Shown here in pieces: positions 7,374-34,018 of a stretch of DNA of 34,088 bases. The notes under the pieces were generated by a model. That model did no database searches, was not told the DNA's origin, and saw nothing but the letters and a program-made list of their open reading frames with translations. The position numbers and the translations under genes are program-made. The stretch is from Vulcanimicrobiota bacterium (GTDB lineage: Bacteria > Vulcanimicrobiota > Vulcanimicrobiia > Vulcanimicrobiales > Vulcanimicrobiaceae): positions 1 to 34,088 of the forward strand of contig JAFAMK010000203.1 of the NCBI GenBank assembly GCA_019233415.1. The letters run 5' to 3'. Numbering within the stretch: the first letter of the stretch is position 1; each line of letters begins with the position of its first letter.

Positions 7374-8276
7374 CTAGGTCGTCTTTTTGCGCACGCGCAC
7401 GCCCGCCGCGCGCTCGTAGAACGTCGCGACCGACGTGTAGTCGTCGCGGCCGTGTCCTTCGCCCGAGGCCGCGGTGTACATTTGGTACGCGAGCGCGCTG
7501 GCCGGCATCGGGACGCCCATCGTGCGCGCGGAGTCGAGCGCCGCGGCGAGGTCCTTGCGCAGCAGGTCGAGCGCGAAGCCCGGCGCGTGCGAGCCGGCGA
7601 GCCAGCTGTTCGGAATCCAGTTCTGCAGCAGGTAGTTCGAACCGGTCGCGCTCGCAATGACCGCGAGAACCGCGTCGACGTCGGCGCCGGCCTTCGCGGC
7701 GAACGTCAGCGCCTCGGCGTTGGCGAGCATCACGCTCGAGATGATGACCTGGTTGACGAGCTTGACGACTTCGCCCATCCCGACGCCGCCGACGTGGTTC
7801 GGCGTCCCCATCGCTTCGAGCACCGGTTTCGCGGCGATGAAGTCGTCGTCGGACGCGCCGACGATGATCGTGAGCGTCCCGCTCTTCGCGCGCGCCGGCC
7901 CGCCGGAAACCGGCGCATCGACGAACCGGAAGCCTCCGGCGCGCAGGCGCTCGTCGAAGCCGCGCGTCGCGACCGGCGAGATCGTCGACATGTCGATGAA
8001 GAGCGTGCCCGGTTTCGCGCCGTGCGCGGCACCGTGCTCGCCGAACAGTGCCTCTTCGACCTGCGGCGCGTCGGGGACGACCGTGATGACGAACGCGCTC
8101 GCGCGCGCGACTCCGGCCGGATCGCCGCCGTCGTGCGCGCCGGCCGCGACGAGCCGTTCGACCGGCGCGCGGTCGCGGTGCGCGCACACGCTCACGGTGC
8201 AGCCGGCCCGCAGCAACGCCGCGGCCATCGGCTCGCCCATCGCGCCGACGCCGATCACCCCGACTTCGTATGCCAT
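7374..8276 (-). CDS. NAD(P)-dependent beta-hydroxyacid dehydrogenase (HIBADH/GarR family)
   Basis: A 300-residue cytoplasmic oxidoreductase of the 3-hydroxyisobutyrate / tartronate-semialdehyde reductase superfamily. The N-terminal Rossmann fold opens with VGVIGVGAMGEPMA. The substrate-binding motif is DAPVSGGPARAKSGTLTIIV, and the likely catalytic lysine lies in GMGEVVKLVNQ. The C-terminal all-helical domain includes FALDLLRKDLAAAL. The ATG at 8276 removes an Arg-rich upstream extension. It precedes ppx by 14 nt on the same strand, so it may head the phosphate transcript, although a metabolic link is not evident. The exact substrate cannot be read from sequence. Confidence 0.88.
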   Translation of the reverse strand: MAYEVGVIGVGAMGEPMAAALLRAGCTVSVCAHRDRAPVERLVAAGAHDGGDPAGVARASAFVITVVPDAPQVEEALFGEHGAAHGAKPGTLFIDMSTISPVATRGFDERLRAGGFRFVDAPVSGGPARAKSGTLTIIVGASDDDFIAAKPVLEAMGTPNHVGGVGMGEVVKLVNQVIISSVMLANAEALTFAAKAGADVDAVLAVIASATGSNYLLQNWIPNSWLAGSHAPGFALDLLRKDLAAALDSARTMGVPMPASALAYQMYTAASGEGHGRDDYTSVATFYERAAGVRVRKKTT

Positions 8277-8311
8277 ACGACCCGCACGCGTACGGCGCGC
8301 GGTCACGTGCG

Positions 8312-8360
8312 CCCTTCGCCCCTTCGCCCTTCGCCCTTCGACAAGCTCAGGATGACAGGG
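8312..8360 (+). repeat. Dispersed repeat copy 1 with tandem cccttcg heptamers
   Basis: The core cccttcgacaagctcaggat plus gacaggg ends at 8360. It is preceded by extra tandem copies of its own 5' heptamer (cccttcg, ccccttcg, cccttcg), giving four copies in total. It fills the divergent gap between the dehydrogenase and the UbiA gene, and its last bases (aggggctt) form the likely ribosome site of the UbiA gene. It is one of four copies in the window. Confidence 0.85.
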
Positions 8361-8364
8361 GCTT

Positions 8365-9291
8365 GTGAAGAACGCGGGTGGGGTGCGCGCGTTCGTGGCG
8401 TTCGTCCGGTTGTCGCGGCTGCTCTTCCTCTATGGCGGGTTCGCGGGGGTCGCGTTCGGCGCGGCCGTGGCGGTGCACGGGGGGATGCCGTTCGACGTTG
8501 CGACCTATGTCTGGGCGCAGGTCCTCGTCACGGCGTTTCACCTGATGGTGCACTACGCGAACGAGTACTTCGACGCGGCCGGCGACGCGCTCGCGCGGCG
8601 CGACGCGCGGACCGCGTGGTCGGGCGGAAGCGGCATCCTCGTCGACGGCGCGCTGCCGGCGCGGGTCGCGCTCGTCGCCGCGCTCTTCTGCGCCGCGGTC
8701 GGGCTCGTCGCGACGGCGCGCTTCGCGCTCGCCGGGAACGCCGTCGTCGCGGCGCTCGGCGTCGCGATCCTCGCGTTCGCGTGGTTCTACTCGGCGCCGC
8801 CGCTGCGCTTCGCGGCGCGCGGGCTCGGCGAGGCGGACGCGGCACTCGTCGTCGCGGTCCTCGTGCCGGCCGTCGGCTACGCGGCGTTCGCACACGGGCT
8901 CGACGTGCACATGCTCGCGGCGACGATTCCGACCGCCGCGGCGATGTTCGCGATGATGCTGTCGGTCGAGCTGCCCGACGCCGGCGCCGACCACCTCGCC
9001 GGAAAGCGCACGCTCGTCGTGCGCTGGGGCCCGTCGCGCACCTGGCCGTTCCTCGCCGGCGCCGCCTGGACCGCCGCCGTGACGGCCCTCGCAACCGCAT
9101 TCCGCGTCGCGCCGCCCCCGTTCGTCGCCGCGCTCGTCCCTTCGGTCGTCGCCGCGGCGGCCATCGTCTGGCTCACGGTGCGCGACCCCCGCCCGGCGAC
9201 GCTCGCGTTCTGGGGCGTCGCGCTCTACGCAACGACAGTCACCGGACTAGCGGTCGTCTTCGCCCTAGCCCCCTCGACAGGCTCAGGATGA
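8365..9291 (+). CDS. UbiA-family prenyltransferase (MenA-like)
   Basis: Integral membrane enzyme that attaches a polyprenyl chain to an aromatic acceptor; MenA acts on 1,4-dihydroxy-2-naphthoate in menaquinone synthesis. The 308-residue product is rich in transmembrane helices. It shows the first Asp-rich motif as NEYFDAAGD (about 66-74) and the second as ELPDAGADHLAGKRTL (about 202-217), which together bind the Mg-prenyl diphosphate. The start is the GTG at 8365, with AGGGG from the repeat 4 nt before it. The C-terminal APSTGSG and the stop come from a second repeat copy. UbiA, HepT-linked or chlorophyll-synthase-like roles cannot be excluded. Confidence 0.85.
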   Translation: MKNAGGVRAFVAFVRLSRLLFLYGGFAGVAFGAAVAVHGGMPFDVATYVWAQVLVTAFHLMVHYANEYFDAAGDALARRDARTAWSGGSGILVDGALPARVALVAALFCAAVGLVATARFALAGNAVVAALGVAILAFAWFYSAPPLRFAARGLGEADAALVVAVLVPAVGYAAFAHGLDVHMLAATIPTAAAMFAMMLSVELPDAGADHLAGKRTLVVRWGPSRTWPFLAGAAWTAAVTALATAFRVAPPPFVAALVPSVVAAAAIVWLTVRDPRPATLAFWGVALYATTVTGLAVVFALAPSTGSG

Positions 9292-9296
9292 CGGGG
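9271..9296 (+). repeat. Dispersed repeat copy 2, overlapping the 3' end of the prenyltransferase gene
   Basis: ccctcgacaggctcaggatg followed by acgggg differs slightly from the other copies. It supplies the last codons and the TGA stop (9289-9291) of the UbiA-family gene. Confidence 0.8.
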
Positions 9297-9393
9297 ACGT
9301 CGTTGCGCGGGCCTCCGGAACGGGAGCACAATGGTCGCGATGGGCCGCGGGCGAAGCCGACGGGCCACGAACTCACCAAGGGGAACCGACAGG

Positions 9394-10299
9394 ATGCTTG
9401 CTTCGATCCGCCGGCCGACGTTCGAAGACCTCAACCTCTCCACCGGGAAGCGCGCCCACCTCTGGAACCTGATGCACGGGCACGGCCCGGGCAACGGGAC
9501 GCTGATGATGCTCCCGATCGACCAGGGGCTGGAGCACGGCCCGGTCGACTTCTTCGACAATCCCGACGCGATCGACACGGACTGGGTGCTGCGGCTCGCG
9601 GTCGAGGGGAACTTCTCCGGGATCGCCTACCACGTCGGGCTCGCCGAAAAGTACCACAAGCAGTACGCCGGCCGCGTTCCGCTGGTGCTGAAGGTCAACG
9701 GGAAGACGAACGTTCCTCCCGACGACGAGTCGTTCAGCCCGCTCACGTCGAGCGTCGAAGACGCGGTGCGGCTCGGCGCCGACGCCGTCGGCTACACGGT
9801 CTACGTCGGCTCGCCGGCGCAAGACCGCGACCTTCGCCAAGCCAACGACGTCCGCCGCGACTGCGAAAAATACGGAATGCCGCTGATCGTGTGGGCGTAT
9901 CCGCGCGGCTCCGCGGTCAAGGCGAAGGGCGGTCAGGACTCGCTCTACGCGGTCGACTACGCGGCGCGCGTCGCGTGCGAGATCGGCGCCGACATCGTGA
10001 AGCTCAACGTGCCGAAGGCCGAAGAGGCCGCAGCGGCGTCGCCCAAACCCTACAACACGCTGACGATGTCGGAACTGGACGGGCTGCGCAAGGTCGTGAA
10101 GTCGGCGGGGCGCACGCTCGTGCTCGTCTCGGGCGGCTCGAAGCTCAGCGACGACGACACCGTGCACAAGGCGCGGCTCGCGATGGAAGCCGGCTGCGTG
10201 GGGCTGATCTTCGGGCGCAATATGTGGCAGCGGCACTGGGACGACGCCCGCGCGATGGCCGGCCGCATGCACGACCTCATGAAGGAGTTCGGGCAGTAG
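9394..10299 (+). CDS. Class I fructose-bisphosphate aldolase, DhnA/FbaB type
   Basis: Schiff-base aldolase cleaving fructose 1,6-bisphosphate in glycolysis/gluconeogenesis, of the DhnA/archaeal-type (DeoC/LacD superfamily) TIM barrel. The 301-residue product has MLPIDQGLEHGP near the N-terminus, a likely Schiff-base lysine at about 203 in ADIVKLNVP, and the C-terminal phosphate-binding loops VLVSGGSK and GLIFGRNMWQ. The ATG at 9394 is chosen because AAGGGG precedes it and the N-terminus then matches the family; the ORF track start at 9331 adds an Arg-rich leader. Related 2-amino-3,7-dideoxy-heptulosonate synthases share the fold, but the length and motifs favour aldolase. Confidence 0.88.
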   Translation: MLASIRRPTFEDLNLSTGKRAHLWNLMHGHGPGNGTLMMLPIDQGLEHGPVDFFDNPDAIDTDWVLRLAVEGNFSGIAYHVGLAEKYHKQYAGRVPLVLKVNGKTNVPPDDESFSPLTSSVEDAVRLGADAVGYTVYVGSPAQDRDLRQANDVRRDCEKYGMPLIVWAYPRGSAVKAKGGQDSLYAVDYAARVACEIGADIVKLNVPKAEEAAAASPKPYNTLTMSELDGLRKVVKSAGRTLVLVSGGSKLSDDDTVHKARLAMEAGCVGLIFGRNMWQRHWDDARAMAGRMHDLMKEFGQ

Positions 10300-10300
10300 C

Positions 10301-10534
10301 ATGACCACCGCGACGGTCGAAGGCCGCATCGAAGCGGCCCTCGACCGGATTCGCCCGGCGATCCGCCGCGACGGCGGCGACGTCTGGCTGGTGAAGGTCG
10401 ACGCGGACGTCGCCTACGTGCAGATGATCGGTGCCTGCGGCGGCTGCCCCGCCTCGCACGCGACGCTCAAAGGCGGAATCGAAGCGGTCGTCCGCGAGGA
10501 CGTCCCCGAAATCCGCGCCGTCGAGCAGCTCTAA
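10301..10534 (+). CDS. NifU C-terminal-domain protein (Fe-S scaffold/carrier)
   Basis: A 77-residue stand-alone NifU-like domain that assembles or carries an iron-sulfur cluster for transfer to apo-proteins. The defining CxxC is at about 46-49 in GACGGCPASHATLKGGIE, after a helix (EAALDRIRPAIRRDGGDV) typical of this family. The ATG starts 1 nt after the aldolase stop, so both are probably on one transcript. It lacks the NifU N-terminal and ferredoxin-like domains, as in Nfu-type proteins. Confidence 0.92.
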   Translation: MTTATVEGRIEAALDRIRPAIRRDGGDVWLVKVDADVAYVQMIGACGGCPASHATLKGGIEAVVREDVPEIRAVEQL

Positions 10535-10538
10535 CTCG

Positions 10539-10565
10539 CCCTTCGACAAGCTCAGGGTGACGGGG
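10539..10565 (+). repeat. Dispersed repeat copy 3 between convergent genes
   Basis: cccttcgacaagctcagggt followed by gacgggg occupies practically the whole 32-nt space between the NifU-like gene (plus) and the CoxM-like gene (minus). Ending there, it could be part of a bidirectional terminator, but no long perfect stem is visible. Confidence 0.85.
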
Positions 10566-10566
10566 A

Positions 10567-11400
10567 CTAGCTGAACCAGCCGCGCTTCTTCTTCGGTGAG
10601 GGCTGCGGACGCATGCGCACGGCGGTGCGTTGCGGTGCATCGGCTGCGGCGCCGTTGGTGTCGTTCGACGGCGGCTTTGCGCGTGCGGCTTCGAAGGCGT
10701 CGCGCAGCGTCGCGAGCGCGAGCGGAACGAGGGCGCGCGCAGCGGCGCTCGAACGCGCGTCGTTCGCGGGGATCGCGGTCGCCGCGAGTCGCGCCGCTTC
10801 GGCGAACATGTCGCGGTCGCAGCGCTGCTTCTCGAGCTTCGCCTCGGCGTCGGCCGCGCGGCGCATGTCACCGTCGAGGTCGATGAAGAAGCGCACGTTC
10901 TCGAAGCGCGCGAGCGGCGTGACGCGCAGGCCGACGGTGACGCCGAGGCTGAGCGGCGTCGCGCCGTCGTTCGTCGTGATGCGGCGTTCCGCGACGCCGA
11001 GCAGCGCGTTGCCGGCGGGCAATTCGATGGAGACCGGCAGTTCGTGCGCGGCGAGGGTCAACTCGTCGAGCGGCGCGATGCGCGTGCGGCCGAGGCCGAA
11101 GACGGTCACGCGCGCGTCGTGCAGCGCGAGGCGCATGCGCGCGTTGGCGAGCGACGCATCGGGCGGAATCACCGCCGGGAGCGACTCCTGCACCTTCGCG
11201 AGCGGAACGAATGCGCCGATCAGCGTGCTCCCGTTCGGCGCGACGGTGATCGCGCGCAGCTCGGGCAGCTCGCGCACGTCGACCGCGAAGTTCGTCGCGC
11301 CGCCGGCCGGTTCGAGCGCGACGCCGAGCAGCTCGCTCGCGCCGGCGTCGAACCGCGTGCGCTCGCGGTGGAGAAAGGCGAGGTTGTTGACGTCGCGCAT
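10567..11400 (-). CDS. CoxM-like FAD-binding domain protein, orphan
   Basis: The 277-residue product resembles the FAD-binding medium subunit of molybdopterin dehydrogenases (CoxM/XdhB type). It shows ELLGVALEPAGGATNF in place of the usual GGQSL loop, then VRELPELRAITVAP and GSTLIGAFVPLAKVQ, and the late motif GLGRTRIAPLDEL. A family-typical CO_deh_flav_C-like segment follows, then a basic, Pro-rich tail ending KKKRGWFS. The FAD loop is divergent, so cofactor binding is uncertain. Partner large (Mo) and small (2Fe-2S) subunits are absent from the window. The ATG at 11400 fits the family N-terminus; an ATG at 11438 is possible. Confidence 0.6.
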   Translation of the reverse strand: MRDVNNLAFLHRERTRFDAGASELLGVALEPAGGATNFAVDVRELPELRAITVAPNGSTLIGAFVPLAKVQESLPAVIPPDASLANARMRLALHDARVTVFGLGRTRIAPLDELTLAAHELPVSIELPAGNALLGVAERRITTNDGATPLSLGVTVGLRVTPLARFENVRFFIDLDGDMRRAADAEAKLEKQRCDRDMFAEAARLAATAIPANDARSSAAARALVPLALATLRDAFEAARAKPPSNDTNGAAADAPQRTAVRMRPQPSPKKKRGWFS

Positions 11401-18554: not shown

Positions 18555-18716
18555 ATGATCAAGTCGTTTCGTTCCATCCTCACCGACGAGAGCGGCCAGG
18601 GCCTCGCGGAATACGGTCTCATCCTGGGTCTCATCGCAGTCGTCTGCGTCGCCGCGGTGGTCTTCCTCAGCGGTCGTATCCAGGGTCTGCTCAGCAACGT
18701 CGGATCGAGCATCTGA
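18555..18716 (+). CDS. Flp family type IVb pilin 1
   Basis: A 53-residue major-pilin candidate. The leader MIKSFRSILTDESG ends at the Flp cleavage motif G|QGLAEY; Glu-5 and Tyr-6 of the mature protein are hallmark residues. The mature form is 39 residues, mainly one helix (GLILGLIAVVCVAAVVFLSG), and polymerises into the pilus. It is followed after 1 nt by a second, nearly identical pilin gene. Confidence 0.95.
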   Translation: MIKSFRSILTDESGQGLAEYGLILGLIAVVCVAAVVFLSGRIQGLLSNVGSSI

Positions 18717-18717
18717 C

Positions 18718-18900
18718 ATGACCGAACCCGAAGCGGCGCCGGTCGCGGCGCTCCGCGCCCTGACCGTCGCCGATTCGGGTCAAGGACTTGCCGAGTACGG
18801 CCTCATTCTCGGCCTGATCGCCGTCGTCTGTGTCGTGGCGGTCGCATTCCTCAGCGGGCACATCCGCTCGCTCCTCAGCAGCGTCGGGACGAGCATCTGA
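18718..18900 (+). CDS. Flp family type IVb pilin 2
   Basis: A 60-residue paralogue of the preceding pilin. The leader is longer and Pro/Ala-rich (MTEPEAAPVAALRALTVADSG), but the processing site and first 17 mature residues (QGLAEYGLILGLIAVVC) are identical. Differences are confined to the late helix and C-terminus (HIRSLLSSVGTSI). It starts 1 nt after the first pilin stop, with no strong ribosome site, so it may be made at lower level as a minor subunit. Confidence 0.93.
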   Translation: MTEPEAAPVAALRALTVADSGQGLAEYGLILGLIAVVCVVAVAFLSGHIRSLLSSVGTSI

Positions 18901-18901
18901 C

Positions 18902-19396
18902 GTGCTCGTGCTCGTCCTCGTCGCGTTCGCCGCGGTTGCCGCCGTCATCGACGTGCGCTCGCGCCGCATCCCCAACGTTCTCACCGGCGCGCTAGCGCTG
19001 AGCGGGCTCGCCATCCACCTAACGCAAGGTGCCGTTCCCACGCTCATTGCGCTCGCGACGATGCTCGCCGCGTTCGTCCTCGGCACGCTGGCGTTTCAAG
19101 CCGGCTGGTTCGGCGGCGGCGACGTCAAGCTGATCGCCGGTGCCTGCGGCCTCGTCTCCTATCCCGACTGTCTTCCGCTGCTCGCTTACATTCTCGCCGC
19201 CGGCGCCGCGCTGGCGCTCGCCTCCGCCGCGCGCGAAGGCCGGCTCGTCGAGCTGATCCGCAGCACGGCGATCATCGCCGCGCACGGCGGCGGCCCTTCA
19301 CGTCGCAGCCCCCTGCCGTACGGCGTCGCGATCGCCGCGGGCAGCGCCGGCTACGCGCTTGCGACCTTCCTTCCGCTCACCTGGACCACACCATGA
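18902..19396 (+). CDS. Prepilin peptidase 1 (CpaA/TadV, A24 family)
   Basis: Membrane aspartic protease that trims Flp and TadE leaders. The 164-residue product is the short form without the N-terminal methylase domain. The two catalytic aspartates lie in AAVIDVRSRRIPN (the first) and GGGDVKL (the GxGD motif). The GTG at 18902 follows the pilin stop by 1 nt; the longer ORF in the track reads through the pilin in another frame. Its stop overlaps cpaB (ATGA). Confidence 0.92.
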   Translation: MLVLVLVAFAAVAAVIDVRSRRIPNVLTGALALSGLAIHLTQGAVPTLIALATMLAAFVLGTLAFQAGWFGGGDVKLIAGACGLVSYPDCLPLLAYILAAGAALALASAAREGRLVELIRSTAIIAAHGGGPSRRSPLPYGVAIAAGSAGYALATFLPLTWTTP

Positions 19397-32708: not shown

Positions 32709-33128
32709 CTAGCGGTCGATTCCGAGGCGTACGACGCGCAGCCGGCCCGCGCGCCGGAGTCGCACGTACACCGTGAATCGCCACCCTTCGCGCAACAGCG
32801 TGAACACCGAACCCGGTCCGTTCGCCGCGACGATGCGAGCCTCGACGCGCGCGACTGGAAATCCGACCGAGCGCGCAAACGCGACCGCTTCGTCGCGATA
32901 GCCCTCAGGGCCAACCGACTCGCGCCCGTGCGCGAACGCCCGGTAACGCGCCTCGAACGACGCGCGACCGCACGCGGCGAGCGTGCGCGGCAAAAGCGCG
33001 CGAAGCGCCGTTAGCCGCTTGCGAAACACGATTTCGACGTAGTGCGCGACGTCCGCCTCGTCCACGCCGGGAACGGTCAGTCGCTCACCGGTCAGTGCCC
33101 GAGCGAGCGCGCGCTGATAGGCGATCAT
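32709..33128 (-). CDS. DUF2063/HvfC-like partner of the MNIO enzyme
   Basis: The 139-residue product starts MIAYQRALARALTG, followed by HYVEIVFRKRLTALRALLPRTLAACGRASFEARYRAF. This resembles the N-terminal part of DUF2063 proteins (HvfC/MbnC-like), where a YR-N-(5)-L-EAL--TFP---LLG--FF pattern is usual. The C-terminal half (ARIVAANGPGSVFTLLREGWRFTVYVRLR) is beta-rich and could form an RRE-like leader-binding fold. It is much shorter than typical DUF2063 proteins (about 250 residues). The ATG overlaps the MNIO stop (ATGA). Known partners of this class deliver the precursor to the MNIO enzyme. The 277-residue ORF of the track is a shadow extension. Confidence 0.62.
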   Translation of the reverse strand: MIAYQRALARALTGERLTVPGVDEADVAHYVEIVFRKRLTALRALLPRTLAACGRASFEARYRAFAHGRESVGPEGYRDEAVAFARSVGFPVARVEARIVAANGPGSVFTLLREGWRFTVYVRLRRAGRLRVVRLGIDR

Positions 33129-34018
33129 GCGACGATACGGCCGTGCTGCGCCACACCCGTCATCCTGAGCTTGTCGAAGGACGGCGCGGACTCCGCCGCC
33201 GCGGACTCGACAACCGCGCGTCGCGCCACCGCGCGTGCGGCGTCGAGTTCGGCGAGCAGGGTCTCGAACGGCGGCAGCCCCGTTTCGCGTTCGATCAGCG
33301 TCAGCGGCGGGATGCGGCGCGCGCACAGCGCGGCGTAGAGGCGCCACGTCGCATCGGGAACCGGGGCATCGTGTGAGTCCGCGTACTCGCTGCCGATGCG
33401 GCGACCACCGGCGAGATGCACCTCGACGATGCGTTCGACCGGCACGGCGGCCACGACCGCGTCGGCGTCGCACCCGAGGTTCCAGGCGTCGGCGTGCAGG
33501 TTCTCCACGTCGAGGATCAACCCGCAGTCCGCCGCCGCGCAAACCCCTGCGAGGAATTCCGCCGGCGCAAGCTCCGCGCCGTCGACTGCAAACGGCGCCG
33601 CGGGGTTTTCCAGCGCGAACGGCGCGGTGACGATCGCCCGCACGCGCGCTGCATTGCGCGCGACCACATCCACGGCTTCGTGCGTGTGCGGGAGTGGCGC
33701 GAAGGCGCCGAGCTGCGTCGTTCCGACGCGGGTGAAGGCGAGATGGTCACTCCACCACAGCGGGCGCACGTAGTCGAGCAGACGCGCGATCCGTTCGAGG
33801 TGGCGTTCGTCGACGCCGTCGGCGCTGCCGATCGACGTCCCGAGCGCGTGCACGGTGAGCGGAAAGTGCGCGCGCAGCACCTCCAGCTCGTCGCGCTGCT
33901 CGGCGGTCAGGTCGAGGAAGTGCTCGGCGACGATCTCGAGCGCTTCCACGCGCGGCCGCGTCGCGAAGAGCGCCGCACGCTGCTCGGCGCGGTAGAGCAG
34001 CCCGAAGCGCGGCGTCAC
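33125..34018 (-). CDS. MNIO (DUF692) multinuclear iron oxidative enzyme
   Basis: A 297-residue TIM-barrel protein of the DUF692 family, related to MbnB and TglH, which use two or three iron ions and O2 to modify cysteines in peptides. Likely metal ligands are present: E28 (EIVAEHFLD), H57 (VHALG), D91-H92 (WSDHLAF), E137 (LENP), D170/E172/N173 (DVENLHADA), H201 (EVHLAGG), H216-D217 (SHDAPVP) and E243 (ERE). The GTG at 34018 overlaps the upstream stop (GTGA), matching the family N-terminus RFGLLYRAE. The last 20 residues (from SFDKLRMTG) are encoded by a dispersed repeat plus flanking DNA. Together with the Cys-rich upstream protein and the partner it forms a RiPP-type cassette. Confidence 0.92.
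   Translation of the reverse strand: MTPRFGLLYRAEQRAALFATRPRVEALEIVAEHFLDLTAEQRDELEVLRAHFPLTVHALGTSIGSADGVDERHLERIARLLDYVRPLWWSDHLAFTRVGTTQLGAFAPLPHTHEAVDVVARNAARVRAIVTAPFALENPAAPFAVDGAELAPAEFLAGVCAAADCGLILDVENLHADAWNLGCDADAVVAAVPVERIVEVHLAGGRRIGSEYADSHDAPVPDATWRLYAALCARRIPPLTLIERETGLPPFETLLAELDAARAVARRAVVESAAAESAPSFDKLRMTGVAQHGRIVA
33156..33181 (-). repeat. Dispersed repeat copy 4, inside the 3' end of the MNIO gene
   Basis: cccgtcatcctgagcttgtcgaagga on the plus strand is the reverse complement of the repeat core. It is read in frame as SFDKLRMTG near the C-terminus of the MNIO enzyme, beyond all conserved residues. Confidence 0.85.

Follow-up and report, generated by a model that had tools for sequence, protein, structure and literature searches.

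A CGTC-tagged hairpin repeat of 29 bp, patchily spread in the Vulcanimicrobiaceae and with a core found in several bacterial phyla, placed mainly between genes and at gene ends

What are the four near-identical short repeats that lie next to genes in a 34,088-nucleotide stretch of a Vulcanimicrobiota bacterium (GenBank assembly GCA_019233415.1, contig JAFAMK010000203.1, positions 1 to 34,088 of the forward strand; the whole stretch is called the window here), and how did they come to be there? The initial annotation described an element of roughly 26 nt, present three times forward and once reversed, and proposed a mobile, REP-like or regulatory role. All four copies were found and their 20-mer cores located at 8337-8356 (plus strand, exact), 9273-9292 (plus, two mismatches), 10542-10561 (plus, one mismatch) and 33159-33178 (minus, exact). 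The conserved repeat is thus real, but its unit is longer than was thought: 129 aligned copies, taken from roughly 660 kb of this genome, gave a 29-bp consensus, CGYCC-TTCGACARGCTCAGGRTGAC-GGGG, with unconserved flanks. An Rfam scan of the window matched no family. A 127-bp direct repeat at 18594-18904 (76% identity, start-to-start spacing 184 bp) is unrelated to the element.

Each copy sits differently with respect to its neighbours. Copy 1 (CGCCC-TTCGACAAGCTCAGGATGAC-AGGG, 8332-8360, plus) lies in the divergent gap between a dehydrogenase gene (7374-8276, minus) and a UbiA-family gene (8365-9291, plus; Pfam PF01040). It had been read as the donor of a ribosome site for the latter, a claim that fails because the UbiA start codons of congeners align with GTG 8383, the likely start; the earliest start codon in this frame, GTG 8365, lies 18 nt upstream of it. 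Copy 1 therefore probably supplies no such site. The tandem heptamers noted at its 5' side do exist, as three extra head units (CGCCCTT, CGCCCCTT and CGCCCTT; 8310-8331, plus), and shorter 5' head repeats were seen in three other sampled copies. The slippage or repeated insertion suggested for them fits the tandem partial 5' and 3' halves that are common in this genome. Copy 2 (GCCCC-CTCGACAGGCTCAGGATGAC-GGGG, 9268-9296, plus) contains the stop codon of the UbiA-family gene (TGA, 9289-9291), as had been proposed. Equally, copy 3 (CGCCC-TTCGACAAGCTCAGGGTGAC-GGGG, 10537-10565, plus) does occupy a convergent gap, of 32 bp (10535-10566), between a NifU-domain gene (10301-10534, plus; PF01106; stop codon 10532-10534) and an opposite gene that ends at 10567. 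Copy 4 (CGTCC-TTCGACAAGCTCAGGATGAC-GGGT, 33155-33183, minus) lies in frame near the 3' end of an MbnB/TglH/ChrH-family gene (33125-34018, minus; PF05114) and does extend its product, by the C-terminal PSFDKLRMTG.

These four copies belong to a large family. In the window's own genome assembly (3,303,154 bases, about 75% complete), 188 matches to the 20-mer core were found at up to three mismatches (100 forward, 88 reverse), against a single match, in reverse orientation, for the reversed-pattern control, and the count is therefore far beyond chance. About 86 of the 188 are exact over all 20 bases, so the expansion looks recent. Exact matches occur in 65 of 149 genomes of the phylum, nearly all in the window's own family, with 0-235 per genome overall and 0-145 across the species of the window's genus. 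The exact 20-mer also occurs in at least 113 stretches of genome records; among the matches listed are Bacteroidota, Verrucomicrobiota, Neomarinimicrobiota, Chloroflexi, Nitrospinaceae and Leptospiraceae, the names of metagenome bins being given as deposited and some of them doubtful. With a looser pattern, TTCGACARGCTCANNNTGAC, several genomes of other phyla contain 50-230 copies and the controls none. The 13-nt core of the element is thus common to several bacterial phyla, including Bacteroidota and Verrucomicrobiota. The element was also seen in 33 stretches of IMG/VR contigs, six exact copies lying in IMGVR_UViG_3300035388_000083; these may be viruses, or prophage or host contamination. 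Our literature searches for the repeat's sequence found no paper describing it.

The conserved unit is a hairpin. Read from its tag, the element takes the form (C/T)GTC-A-NNN-TGAGCYTGTCGAA-N'N'N', in which an invariant apical module of 13 nt is closed by a short stem; TTCGACARGCTCA stays fixed while the stem pairs covary, the constancy of the 13-nt module in the sample from other genomes being set by the search pattern. The tag is GACG in 85% of the own-genome copies and GACA in 15%, that is, CGTC or TGTC on the other strand, and TGTC is the commonest form elsewhere. Outside the genus the flanks are mostly ATCC-TTCGACAAGCTCAGGAT-GAC, which on the other strand reads as a GTC tag followed by the hairpin ATCCT-GA-G-CTTGT-C-GA-AGGAT, with mismatches at the two GA positions. 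A perfect 3-bp complement was present in 173 of 212 non-redundant elements from other genomes, compared with a mean of 101 after shuffling. Most of these elements had been fetched with the exact 20-mer, so a fairer subset was formed from the 50 whose 3' triplet is other than GGA and whose stem is thus free of the search pattern; here 46 stems are perfect, and they fall into 15 types (CCC/GGG, TGC/GCA, TCT/AGA, GTC/GAC, CAT/ATG and others). Within the own genome, T(-3) is never paired with G(15) (0 of 29; Fisher p = 0.007). T-A and C-G also occur at this third pair and T-G is absent; the commonest combination is C opposite A (80 of 132), for which reason we regard the stem as partly decayed in this genome. 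The contiguous Watson-Crick stem is 3-5 bp long and reaches eight positions only if the two G-A mismatches are counted. The predicted fold of a single element is no more stable than that of its shuffled versions (z about 0 to 0.9), and the hairpin therefore rests on covariation, not on folding energy.

The proposal that the element has moved over evolutionary time is supported by congeners, which differ at all four sites. At site 1, the congener G128 has an element at the same place, G122 has a different variant, and the other congeners compared have none. The element is missing from site 2 in all five alignable congeners; the insertion there also replaced flanking bases, and a related inverted copy lies elsewhere in the gap in G128 and G120. 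All the congeneric loci displayed lack the element after the orthologous NifU-domain gene (site 3), and the G122 orthologue of the MbnB/TglH/ChrH-family gene lacks the stretch contributed by copy 4. No clean empty site with a target duplication was found in this comparison. Further, G128 contains five nested copies, in which a forward copy occupies the loop position of a reverse copy (GTCAYCCTGA, CCCTTCGACAAGCTCAGGRTGAC, then (G)TCGAAGGG, or nearly so). These nested sites are at positions 870817, 1152396, 1268998 and 1272267 of contig C4 and 267502 of contig C6 (loci L292, L296, L300, L301 and L306); each runs from one half of a reverse copy through a complete forward copy to the remaining half, an a-b-a'-b' order that could fold as a pseudoknot.

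Paired copies show that dimer topology is lineage-specific. The own genome has 33 close pairs: 27 are inverted, their tags lying inside (TT), two have their tags outside (HH) and four are head-to-tail (HT); the looser pattern gave tags inside in 18 of 20. By that same pattern the tags are outside in seven of eight pairs in Verrucomicrobiota and 12 of 16 in Bacteroidota, and 25 of 32 pairs in the relative G042 are head-to-tail. On contig C1 of G042 (L276, L280), head-to-tail arrays comprise three to six elements with a period of 26-40 bp, oriented independently of gene direction. A single-orientation run along G042 was considered and rejected; minus copies lie at 2231680 and 2231706. On contig C4 of G128, 11 plus copies and one minus copy lie between 1.01 and 1.205 Mb and five plus and 25 minus copies between 1.227 and 1.93 Mb, with the switch near 1.21 Mb; GC skew in samples of G042 and G128 gave no clear replication-linked pattern and, in the stretches sampled, does not explain the orientation runs of G128. 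In the own genome, the paralogous places L052:268-321 and L215:121-194 share the outer flanks of an inverted pair and differ inside it by a partial element of about 20 bp, so that the spacer has changed and the ends have stayed. Two further pairs of places (L232:290 and L237:6198; L056:142 and L216:5555) have near-identical flanks and heads that differ by three or six bases directly 5' of TTCGAC; the 5' head therefore looks unstable.

Placement relative to genes was assessed in 60 own-genome contigs (about 660 kb) with a simple in-house gene caller. The 132 copies comprise 43 in tandem gaps, 27 in convergent gaps, eight in divergent gaps, 16 at gene 3' ends, five at gene 5' ends, 25 inside predicted genes and eight at contig edges. 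Per base, convergent gaps hold 18 times, and gene interiors 0.2 times, the number expected; as these contigs had been selected because they contain copies, absolute fractions are inflated, but the comparison between gap types should be unaffected. A copy is present at 19 of 72 convergent, 37 of 441 tandem and eight of 62 divergent junctions (convergent versus the rest, p = 8e-5), and 12 of the 132 copies supply a stop codon. Copies thus favour intergenic DNA and convergent gaps, and purifying selection alone could explain their intergenic placement. The statement that the repeats sit exactly at gene ends holds as an enrichment; it does not hold for copy 1, between two gene starts, or for the copies inside predicted genes.

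Such placement could also be read as that of a terminator or mRNA 3'-end protector under selection, its copies spread by duplication and its mobility incidental. The excess in convergent gaps would suit this, as would the median distance of 37 nt between element and upstream stop codon in tandem gaps, and the inverted dimer folds strongly (-47.7 kcal/mol, z = -9.4). However, the single copies, as noted, fold like shuffled sequences, an inverted dimer is present in only about one-third of the occupied tandem or convergent junctions, the two orientations are about equally frequent beside tandem genes (20 and 23 copies), and many close relatives have few copies or none; we therefore consider this explanation unlikely. 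The predominance of inverted pairs, 28-173 bp apart with their tags inside, might instead recall a small DDE-type transposon, a MITE or insertion sequence whose terminal repeats are the 29-bp units. This is highly improbable, as the spacers are of unequal length and have no conserved sequence in common, copies often occur singly, other lineages arrange the unit in the opposite sense or head-to-tail, and among 1,366 predicted proteins sampled there was no multi-copy gene family beside or between elements. Only four genes in the sample have elements on both sides within 400 bp, and these four do not make up a single family; no transposase gene bounded by element ends was seen in the sampled contigs. 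Short, highly conserved cores in many copies, with inverted pairs at gene ends, are also typical of the DNA uptake sequences of Neisseria, and enrichment through uptake bias during natural transformation would give a similar picture. We reject that idea, as extremely improbable, because the stem covaries: compensatory changes around a fixed loop point to a hairpin and not to a linear recognition word. Copy numbers from none to more than 100 among species of one genus, and the same core in unrelated phyla, also argue against it.

A further candidate model is the RAYT-mobilized REP or REPIN, in which a single-copy domesticated Y1 transposase recognizes hairpin and tag and acts in trans, and a link to such an enzyme had been suggested for this element. 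The hairpin with its tetranucleotide tag, the dimers and the high copy number resemble GTAG REPs and REPINs (E. coli BIMEs, Pseudomonas REPINs), as does the intergenic and convergent placement, and Y1 genes are present in ten of 17 core-carrying genomes of other phyla that were searched. However, the tag is CGTC or TGTC instead of GTAG, and a profile search for Y1_Tnp (PF01797) found none in the own genome (G000) or in its relatives G128, G042, G126, G123, G087, G099 and G097, while control genomes gave matches; several of these Y1-free genomes are 96-100% complete and have more than 100 copies each. Moreover, none of the 40 Y1 loci inspected (30 in other phyla, ten in this phylum), each read for about 1.5 kb on either side where the contig allowed, contains the 13-nt core. 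Copy-rich genomes that lack Y1, Y1 loci that lack the core and the lack of a recurrent neighbouring gene family together leave the involvement of RAYT unsupported, and these searches yielded no candidate mover. For this family the RAYT reading is largely refuted and, in our view, very improbable. The initial annotation was therefore partly right in both its observation and its interpretation: the element is REP-like in copy number, covarying hairpin, tetranucleotide tag, dimers and gene-adjacent location, and the RAYT link is not supported.

A better match is the superfamily of CGTC-tagged REPs, which were described as having no dedicated transposase and an unpaired CGTC, or TGTC or CCTC, at one end (Di Nocera, De Gregorio and Rocco, 2013; PMC3733652). 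According to the text of that report, on which this comparison is based and which divides them into four families, these REPs sit between convergent and unidirectional genes and sometimes inside genes, have a stem of 8-9 bp, a loop of 4-5 nt and an unpaired 3-nt tail that is mostly CCA, form dimers that are mainly HH, rarely TT and negligibly head-to-tail, and occur in Proteobacteria, Chlorobi, Bacteroidetes, Spirochaetes and Thermotogae. Our element shares with them the CGTC or TGTC tag beside a hairpin, complementary stem changes, an A-T pair at the stem base (here, in genera other than the window's own), a location downstream of genes, the supply of stop codons, the presence of some copies inside genes, an uneven distribution and the lack of a dedicated transposase (Y1 being the type searched for here). 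It differs from them, as described there, in the end opposite the tag (GGRCG in the own genome, not a mostly-CCA tail), in the own-genome dimers with tags inside, in the tandem head-to-tail arrays of G042 and in its hosts, Eremiobacterota, Verrucomicrobiota and others not being among the phyla listed. Its contiguous stem of 3-5 bp, followed by two G-A mismatches, appears shorter than theirs, though counting the mismatches would bring it to eight positions. Rickettsia RPE-4 and RPE-6 and Neisseria dRS3, classed in that report as CGTC-4/CGTC-1, are likewise CGTC-tagged palindromes, and some of the Rickettsia repeats, like copy 4 here, form in-frame parts of genes; these likenesses are by description. 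The element most likely belongs to the CGTC-tagged REPs, being likened to them by the features given in the text of that report. These REPs had no known mobilizer when that report described them in 2013 (PMC3733652), and the literature searched yielded no later account of such a mobilizer.

Taken together, we judge it probable that a CGTC-tagged REP has expanded in this lineage, as a miniature hairpin element of DNA moved by an enzyme other than a Y1 transposase and tolerated at gene 3' ends. A protein acting on single-stranded DNA hairpins would copy and insert the element; in these bacteria it would be something other than RAYT or another Y1 transposase, either not identified so far or now lost. 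Inverted dimers, tandem arrays, and partial and nested copies would arise as by-products of insertion and slippage, and insertions would be tolerated chiefly between genes and at gene 3' ends, where the element can provide a stop codon or a C-terminal tail. In transcripts, the inverted dimer is predicted to form a strong hairpin that may protect or end them. A more tentative and rather doubtful extension is that the fixed TTCGACARGCTCA module, the freely covarying stem and the GTC tag, found across many phyla, are the signature of one ancient class of enzyme, distinct from RAYT/Y1, that moves hairpin elements without being encoded next to them.

In predicted proteins of genomes that carry it, the element accounts for odd C-terminal tails, such as PSFDKLRMTG, or an STGSG ending whose stop codon falls within the repeat. 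More broadly, an expanded family in Y1-free genomes, its apical module precisely delimited, its stem covarying and its dimer topology particular to each lineage, provides a search image for the enzyme, and the copy-rich genomes among them are good places to look for the mobilizer.
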